Below are positions 42,038 through 57,063 of a stretch of DNA of 64,000 nucleotides, one piece after another. Every line of letters begins with the position of its first letter. Position 1 is the stretch's first letter. Under the pieces are notes generated by a model. It had not been told where the DNA came from. It did not search any database and worked only from the letters and a program-made list of their open reading frames with translations. The stretch is from Thermoplasmata archaeon (GTDB lineage: Archaea; Thermoplasmatota; Thermoplasmata; Methanomassiliicoccales; Methanomethylophilaceae). The stretch covers positions 19,222 to 83,221 of the forward strand of contig SUSY01000002.1 in NCBI GenBank assembly GCA_015063185.1, in the 5' to 3' direction. Both the position numbers and the translations under genes were made by a program.

Positions 42038-42080
42038 CCCGTAGCAAAACCCTATATCACCCCAGAGTGATGGAGGTACC

Positions 42081-42557
42081 ATGGCTACAGTCACACTGAA
42101 GACCAACATGGGAGACATCGACATCAAGATGTACGATGACATGCCCATCACCGCAGGCAACTTCGTCAAGCTCGTCAAAGAGGGATTCTATGACGGACTC
42201 ACATTCCACAGGGTCATTGCAGATTTCATGATCCAGGGAGGATGCCCCAACGGAACCGGAACCGGCGGACCCGGATACACCATCAAGGACGAGTTCGTCA
42301 AGGGACACTCCAACAAGAGGGGAACCATCTCCATGGCCAACGCAGGACCCAACACAGGCGGAAGCCAGTTCTTCATCAACCTCGTTGACAACGGCTACCT
42401 TGACTGGGACAACAGGTCCACCCCTTACGCGCACCCCGTCTTCGGAAAGGTCACCAAGGGAATGGAGGTCGTCGACGCGATCGCAGCTGTCGAGACCAAC
42501 AGGAACGACAAACCCCTCCAGGACGTCGTCATCGTTCAGGCGATCGTTGACGAGTGA
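42081..42557 (+). CDS. Cyclophilin-type peptidyl-prolyl cis-trans isomerase
   Basis: 158 aa; [50 protein letters not shown]. Confidence 0.94.
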
Positions 42558-42569
42558 ACAACATCTTAA

Positions 42570-42583
42570 GGGCCTTCGGGCCC
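42570..42583 (+). terminator. UUCG-capped GC hairpin after the cyclophilin gene
   Basis: GGGCC-TTCG-GGCCC. Confidence 0.5.
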
Positions 42584-42705
42584 CATCATTTCTAAGATAC
42601 GCTGATGCCCATCCTCTACACGAAGACGAGGAACCCATATAGGAGAGTTTGTAGTTCTGGCTATATCTCCAAGGTACAATCCTCGAAACCCACGAAGGAC
42701 GACAC

Positions 42706-43461
42706 ATGAAATGGATATCCCGTGACCCTTTGAAAAGAGAGGTCGATTCCAAGGACCATGATCTATTAGACGAAGTAGTGGAGAGGATCCTAAGCAAAGT
42801 CACCGCCACTTCGGACTTCGGAATCGAGTTACAGATCCACGACCTCCTTCTGAAGAACGTGAAATATGTCAACAAAGAGAGGAACACGGAACACACCATT
42901 GAGGGCCCCCTCCTCAACAAGAAGGCGGTCTGTGAAGGCATCGCCAAAGCGATGAAGTACCTAATGAACAGGAAAGGTGTAGAGTGCGAGATGGTCCTCG
43001 GAAAATTAGACGACGAAGAGGATGATGACATCTATCACGCGTGGAACGTGGTCCGTATCGATGGGGAATGGTATCACGTAGATGTCACCGCGGACATAGG
43101 GATATCCAATGGGAAATCCTTCCGTTACGATTACTTCAACCTCTCGGATGAGGAGATCTCCATGGACCACCTGATCATCAGATCGCCTGTAACCTGTAAT
43201 GTATCCAGGAACGGATACTATCATCGTATGGGCCTGGTGATCAACACACAGAAGGAATTCAAACGTATATTGGAAGAGAAACTGGAGAATGGAGAATCCG
43301 AATTCACATTCAAACTCCCTTCCGCCAAGGACCCCGAGAAGGTCACCACCACACTTATGAGACACATCGAGGAGATCACGGAGATCGTAGAACATCCTTT
43401 CAAAAGATACGAGATCAGTCCGAATCCGGATCAACTGGTGTACACCATAAGGTTCCTATGA
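42706..43461 (+). CDS. Transglutaminase-like cysteine protease superfamily protein
   Basis: 251 aa; Cys KKAVCEGIAKAMKYLMNRKGVECEMVLG, His DIYHAWNVVRIDGEWYHVDVTAD Asp; no signal peptide seen. Confidence 0.75.
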   Translation: MKWISRDPLKREVDSKDHDLLDEVVERILSKVTATSDFGIELQIHDLLLKNVKYVNKERNTEHTIEGPLLNKKAVCEGIAKAMKYLMNRKGVECEMVLGKLDDEEDDDIYHAWNVVRIDGEWYHVDVTADIGISNGKSFRYDYFNLSDEEISMDHLIIRSPVTCNVSRNGYYHRMGLVINTQKEFKRILEEKLENGESEFTFKLPSAKDPEKVTTTLMRHIEEITEIVEHPFKRYEISPNPDQLVYTIRFL

Positions 43462-45402
43462 CCTGTTACGATTCCAGAAGTTCCTGATCCTGTCGATGAA
43501 CATGGACATTCCACCCCTTATGCGTGACCTCCTATCCACGACCAATTCCTCTGGCACACATACATTGCTATCCAAGGAACGCGCCCTCTCGTACCATGCC
43601 CTGGCACCGTCAAGGTCGTTTGACGACATGCACCTTTCACCAATCCTCAACATAGCTGGCACATACCCTCTCTGTGCGGACGACGATAGATAGAGATCTG
43701 AGTGATAGTGATCGTGTAATTTATCCATAATCTCGGAATACAGGAACGCATATTCGGGAGCATCATCCGCAGCATCCTTGAAAGGTTGATGTATGGAAGG
43801 GGTTGCTGCCCAATCGACCTTGTCCTCCATGATGAACCTGTACAGCCTCACCATGGAATCCCCGCGCTTACCTTCGGAGACATCATCGATGCATTTCTGC
43901 TGGGAGGACCTCCGGGCCCTTTTCACGACCACCTGTGTGTCTGGAACGGCCTCGTCCTCCATTGACTGCACCACATCCTCCATCGGTTCGGAAATAGCCA
44001 TCGGTGAAAGAAGTGCCAGATCCTTGGCATACTCCAACAATTGCTTCGCAGGTGAGAATCCCTGGTCCGCGGAACGGGTCAGCCATTTAATCGCGTCGGA
44101 TTTTGATACGGGAACGCCGATACCATCCAAGAAACAGAGGCCCAACCTGTACTGCGCCTCTGCACTGGGTCTTTTGGAGGATGCTGACCTAAGGAAGTAT
44201 TCCGCTGCCTTACGGTCATTCTGTTGTTCCAAAATACCATCGGAACACAACCTCCCCATCACCAACAACGATACGGATGATCCGGATGCGGCCCTCTTCT
44301 TCAGCAACGGTAATTTCTCAGGATGATCCAGAATGAAATCGTAGTCCATGTCGAACACGTATTCCGCCTTGGATACTGGCACAGTACCTGGACTGATACC
44401 TCTGAGTGCCTGGGAATGCCTCCTATCCGCATCACAGAATGGACATGTACCGAGAACTCCATCGAACCTATGGACGTTGTTCACCTTGCACTGCACCGAG
44501 GCCTTCTCATACAGATCGATCTCCGTGAGGAACTCCTTTATGCTGGGTCTTACGGTGGGATCGGAGTATCCGTCTCTGAACATACGAACGAACAGCATCC
44601 GCAAATCCATTGGAACAGCTTCGAGAGGTATGCCGTGCGGAGGAGGTGCGATACCCAACCTGTTCTCCAGATATGGGAACGTGGGCGGATCCAACTCATA
44701 TGCGTACATGGGCTGATGGGACAGTTGACGGGTAGGCTTGTAGTTGAACGGGTGCTCCCCATTCATCAACAATCTGAACAGATGGACCGCTAATGTGTAT
44801 ACGTCGGATTCCTTGGTGAAAGGGAGATCCTTCTTCCTCTCATCGGGAAGGGATTCGTTGGCCTTCATAGCGGAACGGATCTCCATCGGTACCATCTCCG
44901 GCCTAGCCACCTTCCCTCCAAACCTGTCGAATATGAAGGAATCGGTATCCATCAGAGTGACGGTACGTCTCTTCACATCCACCTTTATGTTGGCAGGATT
45001 GAAATCTCCGAAGACGAACCCTGCCTCATGGACGTTGGACAATGCGATGCAGAGGTTCTTCGCTATGGTGAACTTGACATCCTGAGGTATTGCACGGTTC
45101 TTGGTGGATGTTGCATACACACTACTGAAGGAGTCGCCCTTCACACGTTTCATGACGAAACCTCTGAAAAGATTGCCTTCGAAGATTAACTCCTCCGGAA
45201 AGGACACATCCGTCGAGTGTTTCAGATTCGATTCCACCATCTTGGTAATCTTCGAAATCAGTTCCGGCTTCGGATCATGATAGATCTTCATCACACGTGT
45301 CGGATCACCTGCTATACTGTAGACTGCTCCTTCTCCACCACTTCCGAGCTTCTCGAGAGCGCGATAAATCTTGTTGTTGGATCTTCCACGGAGTTCTGCC
45401 AT
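43456..45402 (-). CDS. YegI-like divergent protein kinase with Zn-like motif and Sel1 repeats (kinase B)
   Basis: Likely start MAELRGRSNNKIYRALEKLGSGGEGAVYSI; RVMKIY; GFVFGDFNPANIKVD; LMDTDSF; C-x5-H-x8-C-x2-C (QCKVNNVHRFDGVLGTCPFC); Sel1-like AEYFLRSAS...AQYRLGLCFLDGIGVPVSKSDAIKWLTRSADQGFSPA. Confidence 0.85.
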   Translation of the reverse strand: MAELRGRSNNKIYRALEKLGSGGEGAVYSIAGDPTRVMKIYHDPKPELISKITKMVESNLKHSTDVSFPEELIFEGNLFRGFVMKRVKGDSFSSVYATSTKNRAIPQDVKFTIAKNLCIALSNVHEAGFVFGDFNPANIKVDVKRRTVTLMDTDSFIFDRFGGKVARPEMVPMEIRSAMKANESLPDERKKDLPFTKESDVYTLAVHLFRLLMNGEHPFNYKPTRQLSHQPMYAYELDPPTFPYLENRLGIAPPPHGIPLEAVPMDLRMLFVRMFRDGYSDPTVRPSIKEFLTEIDLYEKASVQCKVNNVHRFDGVLGTCPFCDADRRHSQALRGISPGTVPVSKAEYVFDMDYDFILDHPEKLPLLKKRAASGSSVSLLVMGRLCSDGILEQQNDRKAAEYFLRSASSKRPSAEAQYRLGLCFLDGIGVPVSKSDAIKWLTRSADQGFSPAKQLLEYAKDLALLSPMAISEPMEDVVQSMEDEAVPDTQVVVKRARRSSQQKCIDDVSEGKRGDSMVRLYRFIMEDKVDWAATPSIHQPFKDAADDAPEYAFLYSEIMDKLHDHYHSDLYLSSSAQRGYVPAMLRIGERCMSSNDLDGARAWYERARSLDSNVCVPEELVVDRRSRIRGGMSMFIDRIRNFWNRNRS

Positions 45403-45409
45403 GCCGACC

Positions 45410-46978
45410 TCATGCGAGCCTGTAGTAATCGTTCGATTCCACAATCTGCTTGGCGGTAATCAAAGTTGCTATCGCCTTACCCAAGCGATGAGAGGATCTG
45501 GGACTTCCATAACGATATCCCAAACGACGCTCGGTTTCCAGGATCAGATCGGAGAGGTGTACCGCACCCCTGTCCTTTATCACCGACAATAGGGCATTCC
45601 TCATATCCAGATATGACACTTGAGATATGGATTTGGCCCTTTTACCATCGGGCATACGCCTGTATTGACGGAAACGATCATAATCCGAAGGCGTGAGTGC
45701 ATATGTGACGAACGGACCGTCCTCCACGTGGAAGAAATCCTCCCTCAAGATCTTCCTCACGACGGCCTTCCCCGGTTTCGGATCCGATAGATATCTTCTG
45801 CAAAGGTCGATCAGGTAGGATTCGTCGATGGGCGATTGATCCTGTATCAACGATTCTGCAACGGATTGGATCGAACCGTTCGGTATGTCATCTGGGATAT
45901 CGGTGTAGAACGCACTACAATAACTGGTCATGCGGGGATTGTGCCTCGATGACGACATCATCCTACCCAATGCCTTGGAGTAATTGGATTCCGCCAGACA
46001 CAACGGACAACTGTGTACGCCCTCATGATAGTAGTGTACTGGATTCCTACGACACTGCTTCAACGAATTACGGTAATCGATCAGGGCGGAATGCCACTCC
46101 TTGGATGACGGACGATTGTCCTTGGTCAGGAATGCTCTGCTGAACAACAGTTTCATACCATCAGGTAAGGAGGAGAAACGCGGTGCGTAACTTGGAGCGA
46201 CTATGTGCTTGCCATCCGGATCCATGGATGGGACGGTTCCGCTCAGGATGTTGTCCCTGATCGTAGGGAGGTTGACATCGGAACCGGGACGTAACGCACC
46301 CTGAAAAGGATGTGCACCGTTCATCAATAATTGATAGATATGGATCGCCAATGAGAAATCATCCGATGATTCGGTGAATGTTGGTACCTTCAGGGACTCC
46401 AACGTCCTCCCTTTGGTGAGCCTCTTGGCGATCTCCGGGGCAAGATAGTTGGGCATACTGACCATACAACCGTACACCTTACCGTTGGAATTGATGTGAT
46501 ACGAATCGGTATCGACCAACTTCACATGACCGGACCTCATGTTGACGAACATGTTCTTAGGATTGAAGTCACCGATGACCTGCCCTGCATCATGGACCGC
46601 GTTCAGTGCACAACACAGGTTGATCGCGATGACCACCCTATGCGTCCACGGAGTGTTGGAATACTTGGCCTTGGATCCGATCTCGTAGATTGCACTGATG
46701 GATTCGCCACCGTAGATACGGTCCATGACGAAACCACGGAAATTTCCTCCTGAATCATATAGGGCATCCTTCGGCCATGCCAGGAGTTTGGAATCACGTA
46801 AGGGGGACAGGACCATGGCTCTGACCTTCTCCTCACGGAACTTCGTGGGAGACTTGTAGACCTTCGCCACGTGGTACTTGTCACCCATGATGGCATAGAG
46901 GTCCCCCTCACCGCCTCCGGCGATATGATCGGACAATCCGTACCTGTGACCACTCGTGCCTATGAGATACATCTTCAC
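45410..46978 (-). CDS. YegI-like divergent protein kinase with Zn-like motif (kinase A)
   Basis: YGLSDHIAGGGEGDLYAIMGDKYHVAKVYKSP; GQVIGDFNPKNMFVN; KLVDTDSYHI; QCRRNPVHYYHEGVHSCPLC; C-terminal winged-helix-like region. Confidence 0.85.
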   Translation of the reverse strand: MKMYLIGTSGHRYGLSDHIAGGGEGDLYAIMGDKYHVAKVYKSPTKFREEKVRAMVLSPLRDSKLLAWPKDALYDSGGNFRGFVMDRIYGGESISAIYEIGSKAKYSNTPWTHRVVIAINLCCALNAVHDAGQVIGDFNPKNMFVNMRSGHVKLVDTDSYHINSNGKVYGCMVSMPNYLAPEIAKRLTKGRTLESLKVPTFTESSDDFSLAIHIYQLLMNGAHPFQGALRPGSDVNLPTIRDNILSGTVPSMDPDGKHIVAPSYAPRFSSLPDGMKLLFSRAFLTKDNRPSSKEWHSALIDYRNSLKQCRRNPVHYYHEGVHSCPLCLAESNYSKALGRMMSSSRHNPRMTSYCSAFYTDIPDDIPNGSIQSVAESLIQDQSPIDESYLIDLCRRYLSDPKPGKAVVRKILREDFFHVEDGPFVTYALTPSDYDRFRQYRRMPDGKRAKSISQVSYLDMRNALLSVIKDRGAVHLSDLILETERRLGYRYGSPRSSHRLGKAIATLITAKQIVESNDYYRLA

Positions 46979-48312
46979 CTGGGCCTATCGGCTATGGACA
47001 TGGAGTCCAACCTGTTGGAATAGGTCTTCAACCCTTCGATCGTCGGATCGAGGAGCCTAGCCTTCCTCAGGAACACGTCCGCCTTATCGGATTCGCCCTT
47101 CGATGACCAATACTCTGCCATCAACAAGCATGCGGCCACATCGTTCAAGGCGATGGCGATGAGACAACGGTCCATCTGTTCCCGATCGTCCAACGATCCG
47201 AGAGTGGAAGTGTCCAGATATTCCTTCGCCTCCTGATCGCCTTCCTCGGCAGCGGCCCTGAATTGCAACGCAGCAAGACTGCGCATACCCATACGCAACA
47301 TCGCCTTCGCCCTTTCCAATGCCTCGGATCCCTTAGATATGGCCTCCTTCACGATCTCGGTGACAGGATTCTCATCGGGCTGTTCGATCGGTCCCTCCTC
47401 AATCTCTTCGATGGGCTCTTCGACTGGATCTTCCTTCGAAGCACCACCATCCTTGTACAATGACGGGTAAGCTTTCCTCTTCCATTCCTCATTGAGTGCA
47501 GCCCAATCCGGTTCCTTGTAGTATTCGTCACCGCGGTATTCGGACGTGACATGGATGTTCATCGCTGCGATGAACGTGAGGTCATCGTTTGTGATTCCCT
47601 TGTGGATGTCGCTGTAGAGATAGCTTAACCTTTTAGCAAAACAATCCTCGATCGGCGTACCCTTCCTCTCGAAGAACTTGAAATCCGCCAACCAACTGAC
47701 GAGACGGATGTATATTGGCTCGTCCGTGAGTTTCAGACGTCCGGGCATCAAAAGGTCAAGGACACCGTCGGTCATGGCCATGACCGAGACGAATGGACCA
47801 TCCCTCTGACCGAACTCCCATGCGGACAGGTCCCTCAATGGCTTGACCGAATTGGCCTCCGCACCCTTCTGCGGAGTGGTGATGGATTCAACGACTCCAT
47901 TCAACCCTATTGCAAGGATGGCCCCATCCCCGGAATGGCCGTATACCAGATTGCCGGATTCGGCATCGAACACTGCAGTGGATAAGGTGGTGTCATAGTC
48001 ACAGGGCCAACCGGTCCCTTCCGCTGTATGTTGGTCGATGGCCGACCATGCCTTCTCGTAGGCCTCGCGGATCACATCGGGCGTGAACGGAGGTTCTACA
48101 CCCTCAAGATACCTTTTGACCGTATCGACGGCTATGCGGGACCCCTCATCGGAACGCTCCGCACTGCCGACACCATCCGCAACGATCAATATCGCTATGT
48201 TCGGATGGTTCGGGTGCAGACCGAAATGATTGCTGTCCTGACACGGTTTTCCGGTGGACTCATGGGAACGTCCGCGCTTCGATCCACCGTAGGCACGGAT
48301 GTCGTATTCCAT
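46975..48312 (-). CDS. PP2C-type protein phosphatase with C-terminal helical repeats
   Basis: Likely start MEYDIRAYGGSKRGRSHESTGKPCQDSNHF; VADGVGSAERSDEGSRIAV; YGHSGDGAI; MAMTDGVLDLL; TNDDLTFIA. Confidence 0.88.
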   Translation of the reverse strand: MEYDIRAYGGSKRGRSHESTGKPCQDSNHFGLHPNHPNIAILIVADGVGSAERSDEGSRIAVDTVKRYLEGVEPPFTPDVIREAYEKAWSAIDQHTAEGTGWPCDYDTTLSTAVFDAESGNLVYGHSGDGAILAIGLNGVVESITTPQKGAEANSVKPLRDLSAWEFGQRDGPFVSVMAMTDGVLDLLMPGRLKLTDEPIYIRLVSWLADFKFFERKGTPIEDCFAKRLSYLYSDIHKGITNDDLTFIAAMNIHVTSEYRGDEYYKEPDWAALNEEWKRKAYPSLYKDGGASKEDPVEEPIEEIEEGPIEQPDENPVTEIVKEAISKGSEALERAKAMLRMGMRSLAALQFRAAAEEGDQEAKEYLDTSTLGSLDDREQMDRCLIAIALNDVAACLLMAEYWSSKGESDKADVFLRKARLLDPTIEGLKTYSNRLDSMSIADRPR

Positions 48313-48316
48313 CTGA

Positions 48317-49024
48317 TCACCAGTCGGACACATCACGATCTGGGTCGTACTTACGTGCATCCTGTGGCAACGGATTCAACTTGTTCTCGTTATCGGGAGA
48401 ACTGACGGAGATCACGGTCATACTGTCGGAAAGCCAATTGAATATGCCGTCGAAGTTGGCGGTACGGAGCTCGATGACCCTGCTGGTGAGCGATGAGAGG
48501 ACATCCCTGTTGGCATTGTCGACGGCAACAGCGAAGAACTTGAGCTTTCCGTGCTGACCCTTGGCTTCCTCCTCCTTTATCCTGATCCTTGCGGTCTCGA
48601 TCTCGGATGGCGCCTCACCCTCGGGCATTCCATCCGTGATCATGAAGATCCATGGTTTGAAACAAGGTGTTCCGAGGTTGTTGTAGAACCTGTTGCGTTC
48701 TTTGACAAGATCGATGGCGGTGTTGATTCCCTTTCCCATCGCGGTGTACCCGCCTGCCATGAGATTGATGGGCTGGAGCTCGGAGATGGGCACGAAATCC
48801 TGGACGACATTCACTTCCGAATTGAACTCAACAACGGCGACGTCGACCCTGTTCTTCGACTCCTCGTTCTTACAGACCTGCATCTTGAAATCGCTGACGG
48901 CCTTGTTGAGATTGTCGATACAACCCGTCATAGACCCCGATGTGTCCAGAAGGAGAACGCATGCAAGGTGCGGTTCGTTGGTTGCTTCGATACGTGCTTC
49001 CTCACCAAAAGATATCTGTTCCAT
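48317..49024 (-). CDS. vWA-domain protein (TerY/YegL-like)
   Basis: 235 aa; MIDAS VLLLDTSGSM, GGYTAMGKGI, FMITDGMPEG. Confidence 0.88.
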   Translation of the reverse strand: MEQISFGEEARIEATNEPHLACVLLLDTSGSMTGCIDNLNKAVSDFKMQVCKNEESKNRVDVAVVEFNSEVNVVQDFVPISELQPINLMAGGYTAMGKGINTAIDLVKERNRFYNNLGTPCFKPWIFMITDGMPEGEAPSEIETARIRIKEEEAKGQHGKLKFFAVAVDNANRDVLSSLTSRVIELRTANFDGIFNWLSDSMTVISVSSPDNENKLNPLPQDARKYDPDRDVSDW

Positions 49025-49114
49025 TTCAATCCCACAGGTGCACGCACGTAGTAGGATAAAAACTATAGCAATTTACGATAAGAAAAATACGATTTTTACA
49101 GCATGTGCCAGACA

Positions 49115-51745
49115 TCAAAGGAAATCGGACTTGAACTCCACGGTGAGACGATCGTTTCCTCTGATGCACGAATCGATCGTCCTGAGCAACCTTTCGGAAT
49201 CCATCGATTTCAATTCCTGGAACAACCTCTTGGTGAGACCGTCGTCCTTTCTCGTACCGCGTCCGGAATTGGACAGGAGCATCAACCTGTACTTTGCATC
49301 GAAGTTGCCGTTCTCCGAGGACAGGGTGTACCACCTGAACGCCTCCGCATAGAACTGAGGCATACCCAGACCCTTCTCGAACATCCTTCCGAGAAGGAAC
49401 TGGGCCTCCGGATCGTTATCATGTGCGGCCAGCCTCAACCTCCTTATCGCTTCAGGATGCCCCTTGACGTCACTGCCTGGTAATGAGAGGATACGACCGA
49501 TCTTGCGGTTCGATACCATGTTGCCGGAATCCGCGGACCTCCTGTAATGGTCCAATGCGACAGAGATGTCACGCTTCACGGCACCCGAAGATATCATGTC
49601 CGCACAGATGATGGATGACTCCAAATGACCCAGATTGGAGGCCGATTCGAACCAGTCGTAAGCAAGTGATTCGGACCTCTCGACTCCGTCGCCCTCCAGG
49701 TACATCTCGCCTATCGCATGATACACATCCATATCTGGCTCATCTGACAGCATCATCAATCCGCGATATCTTTCCTCTCCGGATGAGGACATTATCCTGG
49801 ACCTATCCAATCTTTCCTTGGCATCATCCGAACCTAGCTCTATGGCCCTCTGATAATGTTTTCTCGCCAAACTGTACGATGTACTGACCCCGTCACCCGA
49901 CTCGTAACAATGACCCAGACGATATTGGATCATTGGGTCGTCATGATACATGAACAACCTGTACTTCGAGAACCATTGTCCCTCCGGAACATCGTCGCTG
50001 GATAGATCAATACGTTCTGTTGCATCCGAATTCCCGTTGGCGGATGCACGCTCGTACCATTGTAACGCCTCATCCATATCCGCCCTGTCACGGGCCTTCG
50101 ATTCGAGGTATGCTGCCAACCAGAGCTGTGAATCGGAATCGCCACCTATGGCCAATGACCTACGATACCTCACCGCCGTATGGATGCCCTTCTTGGTACC
50201 GATACCGTTCTCGTAACGAACGGCCAACTCCCGGATCACCGAAGGATCTCCCTCCTCCGAACGCAGGAGCAGCCTTCTCATGCATTCTGTATCCGATAAG
50301 GAACCTAGATCGGACACGTCCACCAATTGTGCGGCCCTTTCGTTCCCTGCATTCGCAGACTTGATGAACCACTGAAGTGCCAGATGATAATCCTTCAGAT
50401 TGGACAATTCATACAGCTCTCCAATGCGGAACATCAGATCGTGTATCCGGATCTCCGGAGGCGACCTCACACGACATATGAGATCCGAGAACACTGGCAC
50501 ATCCGATTCTGTGGAATCGATAATTGCATTGTACCATTGTATGGCCTGATCATAGGATACGGTACCGGCCACACCGGACTCGTAGCATTGTGCCAGCAAA
50601 TATCTCGCATAGTTATCCCCAGCATATGCTGGCAATCTAGCCTCCGTGAACACCATCGGATCCGTGCCGGATGCGTCCAATTCCAGACGGTTGCCAGCGT
50701 ACCTATTACCAAGATCCGCTGACTCCCGATACAGTTGGCATATGCCCTTCGCATCGATACCGTCGATCCCTTTTCCGGATGAAAAATCGAATGTACTCTC
50801 ATAACAGGATGCCAACTTGAAGAGTGCATCCGGATCCTTTCCGCACTTCTTGTATGCCCTGATGGCCTTCGAGATGTTAGGGGCCATCCTCCCAAGACCG
50901 TTCTGATGTATCAGACCCAAACGATAGGATGCTCTGATACAGCCCTTGGACTGTGCCTTCTTATAGAGTTCCACCACCTTGGTAGCGGACGCGCCCTTGA
51001 ATGAAGGATTGACCCTCAGGTTATGCTCGAAATGGTTCGCGAGATGATACGATACCAATGGATCCTCGCCATCGGTGACCTTGTTGATGATATAGCAACG
51101 ACGATACGAATCCTCGTCCAATATCCCATCCGGCCTGCCATCGAGAAAATCCGAGGAAAGATACCCTGTAGCGGAATCGTTCCCCCTGGCCAAAGAACGT
51201 GAATAGAACTCCGCTGCAGAATCCAGCTTACATGCGCCGTTCAACTTCTCTGCGAATTCGAACTCCGATGAACCGTCCGGATTCCAGAACAGGTCAGTAT
51301 CGTTGAGCGTATCCTTCACACCCAACTTGGACAGGAAACCGGATGCGAGGAGATTAACCACATCCTGTTGTATCACGGCACTGAGATCCCTGAAGTCATG
51401 GATGTCCTCGAAATACATGGCGAATGCCGACTCTATCTCCGAATGCTGTACAGGGAACACTGAGAAGTTCGAGCACCTGTAGTTCTGGATTATGTGCATC
51501 TCCAGATCCATCAACATCCTGCGGATCACATATGGAAGTTCGCGCCCGCTCCTCTCATTCTGGATCGATAGAGAATAAGGCAATCCCGAATCGTGATCCA
51601 ACCTGTCTCCCGGAGACTTCCTGAAATTGGACTCCCTCAGGGTATAGAATCTGAAATTGGAATCATCGATACAGTATAGTCTATACTTACCCTTGGAAGA
51701 GGGTTCGTTCTCACAATCCAGGACGTATAGTGATGTGCGCCTCAT
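49115..51745 (-). CDS. Large Sel1-like-repeat protein with unassigned N-terminal domain
   Basis: 876 aa; about 200-aa non-repeat N-terminus, then many SLR units such as AIRAYKKCGKDPDALFKLASCYE and AFRWYTLSSENGNFDAKYRLMLL. Confidence 0.85.
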   Translation of the reverse strand: MRRTSLYVLDCENEPSSKGKYRLYCIDDSNFRFYTLRESNFRKSPGDRLDHDSGLPYSLSIQNERSGRELPYVIRRMLMDLEMHIIQNYRCSNFSVFPVQHSEIESAFAMYFEDIHDFRDLSAVIQQDVVNLLASGFLSKLGVKDTLNDTDLFWNPDGSSEFEFAEKLNGACKLDSAAEFYSRSLARGNDSATGYLSSDFLDGRPDGILDEDSYRRCYIINKVTDGEDPLVSYHLANHFEHNLRVNPSFKGASATKVVELYKKAQSKGCIRASYRLGLIHQNGLGRMAPNISKAIRAYKKCGKDPDALFKLASCYESTFDFSSGKGIDGIDAKGICQLYRESADLGNRYAGNRLELDASGTDPMVFTEARLPAYAGDNYARYLLAQCYESGVAGTVSYDQAIQWYNAIIDSTESDVPVFSDLICRVRSPPEIRIHDLMFRIGELYELSNLKDYHLALQWFIKSANAGNERAAQLVDVSDLGSLSDTECMRRLLLRSEEGDPSVIRELAVRYENGIGTKKGIHTAVRYRRSLAIGGDSDSQLWLAAYLESKARDRADMDEALQWYERASANGNSDATERIDLSSDDVPEGQWFSKYRLFMYHDDPMIQYRLGHCYESGDGVSTSYSLARKHYQRAIELGSDDAKERLDRSRIMSSSGEERYRGLMMLSDEPDMDVYHAIGEMYLEGDGVERSESLAYDWFESASNLGHLESSIICADMISSGAVKRDISVALDHYRRSADSGNMVSNRKIGRILSLPGSDVKGHPEAIRRLRLAAHDNDPEAQFLLGRMFEKGLGMPQFYAEAFRWYTLSSENGNFDAKYRLMLLSNSGRGTRKDDGLTKRLFQELKSMDSERLLRTIDSCIRGNDRLTVEFKSDFL

Positions 51746-51761
51746 GATTGGTTGTTCGGAA

Positions 51762-53282
51762 TCAACTTGTCAGATCTGCATATGCGGCCTTCGCATCCTC
51801 GTCACCGAGGTCCGCCGCCCTCTTGTACAATTCGATCGCCTTGTCGATGGACATGTCCACACCATAACCGGACTCGTACAGGACGGCAAGGTTGTACAAA
51901 GAGGACACATGATTCTGCTCTGCCGCCTTTGTGAACCATTTGGCGGCATCCGCATAGGATTCGTCGACACCGATTCCATTGAGGTACATCATACCAAGAT
52001 TGAACTGTGCGATGGCGTATCCATTGGATGCGGATTCGTTGTACCAGGTGAGTGCGGATGCCTCGGACTGTTCCACACCGAGACCGTTCTGATAGAGATA
52101 AGCGAGATTGTTCTGCGCCATGGGGTGACCCTGGTTCGCAGCACGCGTGTAGTACTCGGATGCGGTGATGTACGACTGCTCGATACCGTCACCGCTCTCA
52201 CACAACAGTCCCAGATGATACTGTGCCCTTGCATAGTTCTGCTCTGCGGCCTTCTTATACCACTTGACCGCCTCGTCGTAGGACTGTTCGACACCCTGGC
52301 CGTTCTGGTACATGACACCGATGATGTTCTGGGCCCTCGCATATCCTTGAAGTGCGGACTTCTTGTACCACACCACTGCATCTATGTAGGACTGCTTCCT
52401 TCCCTTCCCATACTGGTACATCCAACCGGTATCGCACTGTGCGATGGCGTTACCTTCCTCCGCCTTCGAGATGAATCTCTCGGCGTTCTCGGTCATCCAT
52501 TCCGCAAGTTCCTCGTCGGATACGTCCTTCTCGGATGGTACGAGACTGTGAAGCACACTGCGTGCCATCAGGTGTCCGTTGTCGGATGCAAGCTTGTACC
52601 ACTTGACCGCTTCGCCATAGGACTCGTTGACATTGTAACCGGAACCGTACATCCTTGCCACCGTGTACTGGGCCCAGATATCGCCTTTCTTAGCCTCTGC
52701 GACCTGTGCATCGATACCGTTCGGATCGACCTTCACGCTGCTGGACTGGATGGACGGACCCATCGCCTTCTCGGTGGAACGCTTGAGGGACCTCTTAGAT
52801 CCCGTGGATACTGCCCTGGGAGATACGTACTCGGAGATGCTCTTGGTGATTATCGGCATGGATGCCATGAGATTCTCGTATTCCCAAAGATCCAACCACT
52901 GGTATCTGCTGAGAAGGAGTTCCAATGCAGGAGGGAACATGAGCTTCTCTTCGAATATCAAAGGAATGATGATCTTATCGCGCCTCTTGGCGGCATTGAT
53001 CTCGTCGGGAACGAAGGTGGAGCCGTTGATGGCACTTGTACATACCAATACGAATACGGGGCATTCGCAGATTCCGTTCATGATCCCCTCTTCGTACATA
53101 CTTCCGGCAGGGATGTCACGCGGAGCGATCCAACACTTGAAACCTGCGGCTTCGAGATTGTTGCAAAGGTCCCTCGCGATACCTTTGTCGTCGGACGAAT
53201 GACTGATGAACACCTGATATGTGGAATCTGCAGATTGGGCCATGATATCCAAGGATGGTAGGGACGTATTCATTAAAAACAA
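51762..53282 (-). CDS. TIR-domain protein with C-terminal Sel1-like repeats
   Basis: 506 aa; TYQVFISHSSDDKGIARDLCNNLEAAGFKCWIAPRDIPAGSMYEEGIMNGI...STFVPDEINAAKRRDKIIIPL (TIR), then about 8 regular SLR units with YQNGQGVEQSYDEAVKWYKKAAEQ consensus. Confidence 0.92.
   Translation of the reverse strand: MFLMNTSLPSLDIMAQSADSTYQVFISHSSDDKGIARDLCNNLEAAGFKCWIAPRDIPAGSMYEEGIMNGICECPVFVLVCTSAINGSTFVPDEINAAKRRDKIIIPLIFEEKLMFPPALELLLSRYQWLDLWEYENLMASMPIITKSISEYVSPRAVSTGSKRSLKRSTEKAMGPSIQSSSVKVDPNGIDAQVAEAKKGDIWAQYTVARMYGSGYNVNESYGEAVKWYKLASDNGHLMARSVLHSLVPSEKDVSDEELAEWMTENAERFISKAEEGNAIAQCDTGWMYQYGKGRKQSYIDAVVWYKKSALQGYARAQNIIGVMYQNGQGVEQSYDEAVKWYKKAAEQNYARAQYHLGLLCESGDGIEQSYITASEYYTRAANQGHPMAQNNLAYLYQNGLGVEQSEASALTWYNESASNGYAIAQFNLGMMYLNGIGVDESYADAAKWFTKAAEQNHVSSLYNLAVLYESGYGVDMSIDKAIELYKRAADLGDEDAKAAYADLTS
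51780..52680 (-). repeat. In-frame tandem ~108-bp repeats encoding 36-aa Sel1-like units
   Basis: Recurrent AxxWYxxAAxxxxAxAQxxLGxxYxxGxGVxxSYxx units in the TIR protein. Confidence 0.8.
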
Positions 53283-53291
53283 TATCCTATT

Positions 53292-54935
53292 CTATTGTCT
53301 GTGTACAGTTATACCCATACTCCTGAGGATGGGTATCATGTTCCTCACCGCTTCGCGATCGTATTCCCTGATGCTCTCCGGTATGACGCCCCAAGGTGCG
53401 ATGTATGGGGAGATCCTGTTATCTGAATCCTTCTTCTCACCGTACACCCAACCGCTGGACTTGCGCTCGGTGACCCAACGGTCGTGCTCCAATATGGAAA
53501 GGAACTCCACCTCGCCTTCGGAGAGCTCGTCCATCGCGGTATCTGGATCACCATCCTGGGACATGACGCATCCGATCGCAACGATCTTGTCGAAGTATCC
53601 GTAGGCCTGTTTGATGTTGGATAGCTTCAGATCGTCACGGAGGTTATCCCAACTACCGTATTCGGTCTGACCTTCCTCCTTACGTCTCCTCACATAATCA
53701 TCATGGATGGCCATCGCGACCTCCTCGATCCTGTCTATGAAGAATGCGGGAATCTCCGGATCCATCATGTCGGAACCTTTCAGGAACAATTCTGCCGAAC
53801 GTTCACAGGTACATACGATATCCAATCCGTTCGGGAAGAGCTCCTCCACCTTCAACAACCTGTTCAATGTCTTACCCTTCGATTCGGGGAAGGATTCCGA
53901 CATTGCTATGGACGAGGTCCTGTACTCTATGGACATCCCATCATCAGAGATCACATATCTGGATTTGGATGGATAGACACTCTTGACAGTGGCACCGTAT
54001 GCGACACGGTTCCATTCCTGCAGCTCATCACAGAGGATCAACAGATAGGAGATTGGATCTGAATCCAGGGACAAAGGGCCCAGATTGAACGGTTCCCTTG
54101 TGAACGTGTGGTTGTGGAAGTTGTGCATCAGGATTGCGGATGCTCCCTCCACTACGGGTACGATGGCATCCTTACCGTATTGACCATGGATGTTGCTCAT
54201 CCATTTCATCAACATGAGTGCACTGAAATACCCATGATCGACGAAACATGTCCTATACATGTTATCCTCATACCCTTTCAGAGCAGAGATTGCATCCTGC
54301 AACGGAATGCCCAGGATGGAAGAGATCCTGTCAGCCATCATCTCAAGGGAATCCTGACCATCGTGATGGACCATCAGGTCCTCCATCCCCCTGATCATAG
54401 GTACCGGTGTGATCTTCGAATCCTCACGATAACATGCGGACCTGAGGAACCTTCTGATCTTGTTGTAGGATATCTCTATGGGATACCCCATATCATGGAA
54501 CATGGATGCCAGACCCCAAACGTACAGGAACTCCTCGTCCGTGTTTTCAAGAGAGATGTCCGTCCTATGATCCGTGAATGCATCCCTGAACCTCTTGGAC
54601 GATGCGTATATGGAAAGACCGAGAATGAACACGTTGATGGAGTGTACGTAATGGTCCCTCTGACTGTCCACCATCTTGTCGGCACGTTTCTCGTACGCAT
54701 GCATCAACTCGATCAGACCGAGGAGATCGGCCTCCCCCGACAACCTATACGAGTTCCTGAACGTGCGATAGATGACGGATGCATTCTCCTCCGTTTCCGA
54801 TGAAGAGAATTCCTTCAGGGCCTCCCTCAATATGGTCAACGTTCCCTTGTTACCTTTGGTATCCTTGGAGAACAATGAATCGAAGAAGGAGTCCACGTAT
54901 TTCCTTGTGAAGAGTCCGGGCATCTCTGAGGCCAT
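53292..54935 (-). CDS. HD-domain phosphohydrolase fused to C-terminal RyR domain
   Basis: 547 aa; HD-like RDHYVHSINVFILGL...LASMFHDMGYPIE...VDHGYFSALMLMKW...AILMHNFHN...LLILCDELQEWNR; RyR-like LSILEHDRWVTERKSSGWVYGEKKDSDNRISPYIAPWGVIPESIREYDREAVRNMIPIL. Confidence 0.78.
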   Translation of the reverse strand: MASEMPGLFTRKYVDSFFDSLFSKDTKGNKGTLTILREALKEFSSSETEENASVIYRTFRNSYRLSGEADLLGLIELMHAYEKRADKMVDSQRDHYVHSINVFILGLSIYASSKRFRDAFTDHRTDISLENTDEEFLYVWGLASMFHDMGYPIEISYNKIRRFLRSACYREDSKITPVPMIRGMEDLMVHHDGQDSLEMMADRISSILGIPLQDAISALKGYEDNMYRTCFVDHGYFSALMLMKWMSNIHGQYGKDAIVPVVEGASAILMHNFHNHTFTREPFNLGPLSLDSDPISYLLILCDELQEWNRVAYGATVKSVYPSKSRYVISDDGMSIEYRTSSIAMSESFPESKGKTLNRLLKVEELFPNGLDIVCTCERSAELFLKGSDMMDPEIPAFFIDRIEEVAMAIHDDYVRRRKEEGQTEYGSWDNLRDDLKLSNIKQAYGYFDKIVAIGCVMSQDGDPDTAMDELSEGEVEFLSILEHDRWVTERKSSGWVYGEKKDSDNRISPYIAPWGVIPESIREYDREAVRNMIPILRSMGITVHRQ

Positions 54936-54981
54936 GAACGTTGATGGTCGAGGACATTCAATAGGATTGTGCCTACCAGGA

Positions 54982-56661
54982 TCATTTCTTCAGATGCTTA
55001 CCAAGATAGTAATATGCATCCGTCAGGGTCTTTGTGAGATGATACCATGTATCCCTAGGATGATAGACCATGCTGACATACTTCTCATGCTTCGCATCCA
55101 CTGGCCACTTCATAGCAGCGAGGGCTGCCCTGGTCTTGGGTGACAACGGGGATGCGAGGACTCTCAACCAGGCCTTTATGTTCTTGTATCCGAGATCGAT
55201 CATCCTGTCCGGGAACAGGTCTTTCACGATATCAGAATAGGCCAGTTCGCCGTTGGTCACATGCTCGTAGATATCCAACCTCTGTCTCTCTTCCTCGCAG
55301 ACATCCTTGAATATGGGCTCACCTTCGGAAGATATGCCGACTATAGGAGGTTCAGGACTGGAGAGGAAGAACTCCGTGAGGTTCACATTGTCCCAGAGTT
55401 TGATGGTCTTATCACGTGTGTGATACCCTTTGTGCTCGATGTTGGGATCATCATTCAGTATGAAATAGTACAGACCTTCGACCTTAGCATCGGGAAAGAT
55501 GTCGGAGATCAGTTTCTGTGAGGAATATTTCATCGTTGTCACATCCACGATGGATATGTTATCGTATTCTCCCAGTGTCTTCGCATACTTGTTGAATAAA
55601 TCCTTACGTTTTTTCTTTATCTCCACTTTGTTCTCTTCGAAGAAAGTGTATGGATCGCCTTCAAAATCCGGGTAGAAGTAATTGACAAGGACCTCCTGAT
55701 ACCCTTTGTAACTCTTGTAATTGGAACCTATGAGTATGTTGAGGAAACGGGGAGCATAGATGTACAGACTCTCATCGAAACTGTTCCTATCATGATACTG
55801 TTTCATGTTGTACCCATCACGGGCGACGAAGAACAACGTACTGTCCTTATCACGATTCTTCTCGATGAACCTCATGTAGTCGAAGAGTAACGGCCCACCG
55901 AACCTATATGCGACATCATACCAGAAATCGTTACCTTTCTCATAGGAGTGGATCATATCCAGAGATACGATCATCGATCTCTCAACAGATCTATTGGCCA
56001 GATAGAACTTATGGATCAAAGGGTGTTTTCTTAGATAGTTGTCTATTGGACGTCTGACATTGGCACAGTATATTCCGAGACTCCTTGGTACACGATAATC
56101 GGAATGCTTGTTGTCACCGAAATGGATGATCTCGTCAGGATGTATCCTCTTCTCGGCCAACATCCTCTTGAATAGGTTTCCGGAATGCTTGTTGCAATTG
56201 TGTTCGCATGAGACGTACAGGTCCGTGTACCCTTCCAATCCACACAGTTTGAGAAGATGTTCAAGATACCTCTTCGGAAGGTACATGTCGGAGATGAGAT
56301 AGACCTCACGTTTCTTGCATAATGCATTGAATGCGTCCCTGACCTCGGGAAGACAGAATGCACACATCTCGAACTCCAACTCCGTCCTCTTCAGATGTGC
56401 ATACTTCGGGTCGATCGTCTCATAGATGTTGGCAAAGGTCGTCTCTCCTGACCATTTGTCCCTTGCCAGATGTTCCGCACGAATTCTCTCCTTCGCGAAC
56501 CCTGGAGCGTTGGAGAATTTCTCGATGTGTTTGAAGAGGTCCCTCGGTTTCACATAGGGTCTCAACAGAAGCGTGTCATAGATGTCGAAGGAGATGTACT
56601 TGTATTTCCTGGCCTCGGTGAATAACCACCTGATGTCCGTGATGTCCCCATGCTTCGTCAT
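54982..56661 (-). CDS. Large HAD-superfamily protein (cell-surface polysaccharide-type)
   Basis: 559 aa; ISFDIYDTLLLRPYVKPRDLFKHIE, VYLISDMYLPKRYLEHLL, IHFGDNKHSDYRVPRSLGI. Confidence 0.75.
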   Translation of the reverse strand: MTKHGDITDIRWLFTEARKYKYISFDIYDTLLLRPYVKPRDLFKHIEKFSNAPGFAKERIRAEHLARDKWSGETTFANIYETIDPKYAHLKRTELEFEMCAFCLPEVRDAFNALCKKREVYLISDMYLPKRYLEHLLKLCGLEGYTDLYVSCEHNCNKHSGNLFKRMLAEKRIHPDEIIHFGDNKHSDYRVPRSLGIYCANVRRPIDNYLRKHPLIHKFYLANRSVERSMIVSLDMIHSYEKGNDFWYDVAYRFGGPLLFDYMRFIEKNRDKDSTLFFVARDGYNMKQYHDRNSFDESLYIYAPRFLNILIGSNYKSYKGYQEVLVNYFYPDFEGDPYTFFEENKVEIKKKRKDLFNKYAKTLGEYDNISIVDVTTMKYSSQKLISDIFPDAKVEGLYYFILNDDPNIEHKGYHTRDKTIKLWDNVNLTEFFLSSPEPPIVGISSEGEPIFKDVCEEERQRLDIYEHVTNGELAYSDIVKDLFPDRMIDLGYKNIKAWLRVLASPLSPKTRAALAAMKWPVDAKHEKYVSMVYHPRDTWYHLTKTLTDAYYYLGKHLKK

Positions 56662-56697
56662 CTTCGGGATAAATGAATCTGCTGGGATATAAGACTC

Positions 56698-57063
56698 TCA
56701 TACGAGAGGCCTGCTCTCCAGAACTAGATGGGTTCCGGAACGAAGATAGATGAGGGGAACACCGTGCTTTCTGAGCTTACTCCTGAGCAACTTGTCGTTG
56801 GTCAGGACGTATGCGTTCTCACGAAGGGCCAATTCTATGACGGAAGCGTCACCTGTGGCATCGGTCTTGATTATGGTGTATCTCCTCGCAAGGTCCAACG
56901 CTGCGTTGGCATACTTGTGCTTGAGGTGCTTCAGTTCACCGATCAGTGGTCCGGGGACGACAAAACGTACATCCCCAAGAAGGTCACGAACTGCGTAATC
57001 AAGATTGATACGCAGTTCGAAAGGCATTAGTAAAGCGTTTGTGTCGAGAACGACGGTCTGCAT
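56698..57063 (-). CDS. PIN-domain protein (Fcf1/VapC-like nuclease fold)
   Basis: 121 aa; MQTVVLDTNALLMPFEL...IGELKHLK...ATGDASVIELALRENAYVLTNDKLLRSKL. Confidence 0.85.
   Translation of the reverse strand: MQTVVLDTNALLMPFELRINLDYAVRDLLGDVRFVVPGPLIGELKHLKHKYANAALDLARRYTIIKTDATGDASVIELALRENAYVLTNDKLLRSKLRKHGVPLIYLRSGTHLVLESRPLV

Follow-up and report, generated by a model that had tools for sequence, protein, structure and literature searches.

The window, a 64,000-nt stretch of contig SUSY01000002.1 from a gut-type Thermoplasmata archaeon, carries on its minus strand a gene (53292 to 54935, ATG start) whose 547-aa product, called HD-RyR here, joins a probable HD phosphohydrolase region to a C-terminal RyR domain. 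This gene lies in a defense-like 13.7-kb block (43032 to 56697) placed between two genes that are adjacent in same-genus relatives. All eight genes of the block are on the minus strand. A HAD-type hydrolase of 559 aa (54982 to 56661) lies 46 nt upstream of HD-RyR; its membership in the system is uncertain, and no relative of it was found at the other HD-RyR loci compared. Downstream, a 9-nt gap separates HD-RyR from a gene encoding a TIR domain with Sel1 repeats (TIR-Sel1, 51762 to 53282; 506 aa counted from a TTG codon, the true start possibly being an ATG 9 nt further in), and 16 nt separate the latter from a gene for a Sel1-repeat protein of 876 aa (49115 to 51745). After a gap of 90 nt come four genes that overlap one another, identified by domain searches: a VWA domain protein (48317 to 49024), a PP2C phosphatase (46975 to 48360; PF13672, 1.9e-30), a protein kinase with a zinc-ribbon-like Cys/His cluster after the kinase part (45410 to 46978), and another kinase, which combines such a zinc-ribbon-like cluster with Sel1 repeats (43456 to 45444).

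In three same-genus genomes (G002, G004, and G005), the homologue of the PIN gene at 56698 to 57063 directly adjoins the homologue of 42057 to 43031, and none of the block genes was matched at the corresponding site. For this reason, the segment from 43032 to 56697 is most simply read as an insertion in the source genome. A search for tRNA genes and flanking repeats at the block gave no attachment site.

The preliminary description had placed the HD-RyR fusion next to a TIR gene, and the domain search agreed, with a PF13676 match in TIR-Sel1 at an E value of 3.2e-21. This was the only TIR_2 match in the source genome assembly, which is about 87% complete. The conserved Glu of the TIR alignment, at the catalytic position, is present (DEINAA). 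Matches of the TIR domain to the Thoeris models of PADLOC and NCBIfam were local and weak.

Together, the VWA, PP2C, and first kinase genes resemble the TerY-P triad, defined as a VWA protein, a PP2C phosphatase, and a kinase fused to a zinc ribbon, which form a signaling switch tied to defense systems (PMC11090510). In the block, the VWA protein is the TerY-like member, the three proteins are encoded together, and the zinc ribbon is recognized from Cys/His spacing alone. The triad of the block differs from the known one in that it is joined to TIR and HD-RyR genes. The presence of such a switch raises another reading of the locus, in which TIR-Sel1 itself would be an NADase effector controlled by the triad and the Sel1 proteins, and HD-RyR would be a separate or immunity module sensing ADP-ribose or adenine nucleotides. 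The binding of ATP, ADP, and AMP-PCP by RyR Repeat12 is in keeping with this idea. However, a TIR gene is found at all of the other HD-RyR loci compared (G022, G060, and L012) and none of them has the triad, and we regard this reading as improbable.

At its C terminus, HD-RyR has a certain RyR domain. The resemblance to RyR repeats noticed in the preliminary description was borne out by an HMM search, in which residues 476 to 545 (53301 to 53510) matched PF02026 with 45.8 bits, above the curated cutoff of 27.4 (E = 7.6e-12). A comparison with solved RyR chains led to the same assignment, phmmer giving 4e-21 for a chimera of Bacteroides thetaiotaomicron and human RyR sequences. Ahead of this domain, the alignment and the structural model placed a first, degenerate RyR repeat at residues ~401 to 465 (53541 to 53735), which is conserved across the aligned RyR proteins. 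Over about 195 aligned columns, the full-length model (pLDDT 72.7, pTM 0.64) matched structures of the human RyR3 tandem Repeat12, among them complexes with ADP, ATP, and AMP-PCP. The match to residues 848 to 1055 of human RyR3 had an E value of 8.5e-05 and a TM score by target of about 0.5 to 0.67. As modeled, the RyR domain and the degenerate repeat form a tandem fold of the Repeat12 type. HD-RyR thus shares a fold of two RyR repeats and ligand residues with Repeat12 of animal ryanodine receptors and with the B. thetaiotaomicron RyR protein 3nrt, but it is not a calcium channel and its first repeat is degenerate.

Judged from its sequence, the N-terminal part of the protein is a probable HD phosphohydrolase. 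The region concerned covers residues ~91 to 310 (54006 to 54665). The H...HD...D ligand-type residues (H98, H147, D148, H234, H271, and D303) are conserved among homologues; the motifs RDH..H98, H147-D148, D233-H234, H271-N272, and D303-E304 are invariant in an alignment of nine homologues with 22 to 67% identity to its first row. The metal ligands proposed in the preliminary description are therefore conserved, while its assignment to the HD family found less support from HMMs. Pfam HD gave no match in the 547-aa protein of the window; PF01966 matched three of the nine homologues weakly, below the cutoff, with a best E value of 0.0095 and the match in register. A profile alignment with SAMHD1-like HD proteins of related genomes had its best match at the HD motif (E = 0.0026), compared with E values of 0.28 to 0.29 for TIR and RyR controls. 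A model of the HD part alone reached a pTM of 0.85, and a Foldseek search with it matched no HD structure. Because the Pfam HD signal was weak and the HD-only model matched no HD structure, the assignment is likely and not proven. Foldseek matches to zinc transporters were insignificant, and zinc transporters were dismissed as relatives of the HD part. The HD-GYP and PDEase families were also dropped, as inspection by eye did not show the motifs typical of them; the HMM basis for this was Pfam alone.

We compared the RyR domain with phage proteins. In May 2026, phage RyR proteins were shown to bind or cleave cyclic ADP-ribose (cADPR) signals made by TIR proteins (PMC13232231). The residues by which phage RyDEP and its relatives bind 2'/3'cADPR are H75, W78, H100, and D117; six of the eight homologue RyR domains tested bound this molecule, with nanomolar constants for the two that were measured (PMC13232231). 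In the alignment, H484, W487, S509, and D526 of HD-RyR occupy the positions of H75, W78, H100, and D117 with identical spacing, and three of the four residues are kept, including the catalytic pair H75/D117 (H484/D526). The exception is the His that coordinates phosphate in RyDEP, which is Ser509 in HD-RyR; therefore, the ligand may differ from 2'/3'cADPR. The three archaeal HD-RyR proteins and the SLOG-RyR and TrkA-N-RyR proteins aligned have Ser at this position, whereas it is His in the RyR protein of the phage-flanked gene in G646. Loss of this phosphate-binding residue, set against its retention in G646, points to an altered ligand or to a domain that binds without cleaving. At L056:4872-5297, an RyR gene with a His at the H100 position occurs on one contig stretch with phage capsid and lysozyme genes and is a RyDEP-like candidate.

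These residues bear on the second of two roles that the preliminary description had offered, a sensor/effector or an off-switch. As an off-switch, HD-RyR would bind and remove the signal made by the TIR protein, by glycosidase chemistry of the RyDEP type in the RyR domain or by hydrolysis in the HD part, and so reset or limit the TIR response. RyDEP shows that an RyR domain is able to cleave 2'/3'cADPR (PMC13232231), and the H75/D117 pair is kept. However, among the proteins tested only the founding RyDEP cleaved, with no cleavage by eight further homologues (PMC13232231), and the change of H100 to Ser in the archaeal proteins, compared with the His of G646, also speaks against it. As to the HD part, HD enzymes are generally able to hydrolyze nucleotide signals. 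Genes of the HD family without RyR adjoin two ThsB_TIR genes in two Omnitrophota genomes (loci L011 and L043), and these could encode signal hydrolases; they also imply that RyR is dispensable for some HD-TIR pairs. Other HD homologues that lack RyR (L027 and L028) have different neighbors: in G253 these are genes for a kinase and an Mrr-type nuclease together with an Abi-like gene, and in G305 the neighbor is an FRG gene. Why RyR beside TIR genes is fused to various effector-type parts (see below) is not explained by an off-switch, and we consider this role unlikely.

Next, the recurrence of RyR with TIR genes was examined. HD-RyR was found in three genomes among 148 of the order and on one human gut contig, MT836912 (L012). 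A scan of genome contigs gave three loci, and a plasmid search gave no full-length relative. For all four HD-RyR genes, a TIR gene was present within five genes. It was the next gene in the source genome (G000) and in MT836912, where the two open reading frames overlap by 8 nt, the second gene on in G022, and the fourth in G060. HD-RyR was the sole full-length gene common to the block of the window and the other HD-RyR loci, and the architectures of the TIR proteins differed. In G022 and G060, a gene of the SLOG(-SLATT) type directly follows HD-RyR. MT836912 is filed as phage and has a Phage_Mu_F gene in addition to HD-RyR and TIR; it possibly represents a phage-borne defense.

RyR genes were rare and patchy, being present in 8 of 392 Thermoplasmatota genomes and 4 of 286 Omnitrophota genomes. 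A census of RyR neighborhoods covered 13 cellular genomes, with the phage-flanked gene of G646 set aside. A TIR or DUF4062 gene was near RyR in 11 of them. DUF4062 proteins are TIR-like NADases (PMC13174449). Nine genomes had TIR_2 within ~6.5 kb of RyR (G000, G022, G047, G060, G130, G154, G108, G615, and G642), G130 having DUF4062 beside RyR as well; G453 and G457 had a DUF4062 neighbor in place of TIR_2; in G177 and G092, neither a TIR nor a DUF4062 neighbor of RyR was seen. When TIR_2 genes were counted in 11 RyR genomes (1 to 3 in each), 8 of the 11 had one within 6.5 kb of RyR compared with 0.11 expected (P ~1e-14), a value that assumes random placement and ignores the clustering of defense genes. 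Because defense genes cluster, some co-location of RyR and TIR is expected without a direct link. On these grounds HD-RyR could be a nucleotide-sensing housekeeping hydrolase with the TIR gene as a chance neighbor in a defense gene cluster, given that the block holds other genes too. This would require a housekeeping gene as rare and patchy as RyR, with only three HD-RyR genes among the 148 genomes of the order, and a co-location with TIR_2 far above chance that recurs among nonhomologous neighbors, and we think it very improbable.

Five kinds of partners were fused to RyR: HD, RelA/SpoT-LSDAT, SLOG-SLATT, a TrkA-N channel, and AAA. RelA/SpoT synthetase-LSDAT (SLOG)-RyR proteins were seen at L044, L045, and L051, adjoining TIR (L044 and L051) or DUF4062 (L045 and L051); they are possible effectors that make alarmones when gated by a signal from TIR. 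TrkA-N channel-RyR proteins adjoin TIR genes at L091:3151-6507 and L049 and are possible ion channel effectors gated in the same way; in G108, TrkA-N-RyR is followed by TIR. At L046:4917-8790, a TIR-NB-ARC-WD40 gene is preceded by two consecutive RyR genes, one for an AAA-RyR protein and one for an RyR protein of 94 aa; L092 has an AAA-RyR gene similar to that of L046 and no TIR neighbor.

Exchangeable effector-type parts on one receptor beside TIR genes are the pattern of signal-gated immune effectors. Because RyR is fused to several unrelated parts of this kind beside TIR genes, we favor the effector reading over the off-switch, and it is somewhat probable, in our estimate, that a Thoeris-like TIR immune system uses HD-RyR as its signal-gated effector. 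Of the two roles in the preliminary description, sensor/effector is thus the better fit, as RyR also occurs beside TIR on RelA/SpoT, SLOG-SLATT 2TM, and TrkA-N proteins, and off-switch fits less. From the domains, the conserved residues, the order of the genes, the insertion of the block, and the recurrence with TIR genes described above, we infer an NADase or cyclase activity, a ligand, an activation step, an HD substrate, and an antiviral role for the TIR/HD-RyR pair. Upon infection, the neighboring TIR-Sel1 would convert NAD+ into a signal of the ADP-ribose type. This signal would bind the C-terminal tandem RyR module at a putative pocket formed by H484, W487, and D526, with Ser509 at the position of the phosphate-binding His. 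Once bound, the signal would activate the HD phosphohydrolase at the N terminus, and hydrolysis of nucleotides or nucleic acid by this enzyme would stop virus replication or kill the cell. The TerY-P-type triad of the block (VWA, PP2C, and kinases) may set the threshold.

Such a system would resemble Thoeris in that a TIR gene adjoins a gene with a predicted receptor for an ADP-ribose-type signal and an effector domain, in a patchy, inserted block. It differs in its receptor, a tandem RyR module in place of SLOG, Macro, or caspase-like parts, and in its effector, a probable HD hydrolase; there is no ThsA, and the TIR protein bears Sel1 repeats. Consistently, HD-RyR had no match in PADLOC or NCBIfam and is not an effector of the ThsA type (SIR2-SLOG or Macro-TM). 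The SLOG(-SLATT)-type gene after HD-RyR in G022 and G060 recalls the SLOG/SLATT nucleotide signal systems described by the Aravind group, but the likely signal source here is TIR rather than a SMODS nucleotidyltransferase. With RyDEP and other phage RyR proteins, HD-RyR shares PF02026 and the equally spaced H75, W78, and D117 positions. Unlike them, it comes from an inserted block of a cellular genome that also holds a TIR gene, is fused to a probable enzyme, and has Ser509 for H100; RyDEP evades the signal, whereas HD-RyR would respond to it. In the literature on phage RyR proteins and TIR systems, the preprint of Yirmiya et al. 2025 excepted, we found no description of an RyR receptor paired with TIR, and no cellular receptor using an RyR module of the RyDEP type was named there.

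More broadly, and only tentatively, these loci may represent an archaeal and bacterial class of TIR immunity in which a tandem RyR receptor is fused to one of several interchangeable effectors (HD hydrolase, RelA/SpoT synthetase, SLOG-SLATT, TrkA-N channel, or AAA), with phage RyR "sponges" copying the host receptor and animal RyR Repeat12 descending from an immune signal receptor. Because the RyR module is present in cellular genomes beside TIR genes and is fused there to effector-type parts, the idea of a host RyR receptor can be tested directly. The HD-RyR/TIR block also supplies a candidate TIR system from methanogenic archaea, and it touches on a long-standing question, namely whether Repeat12 mediates an action of cADPR on animal ryanodine receptors.
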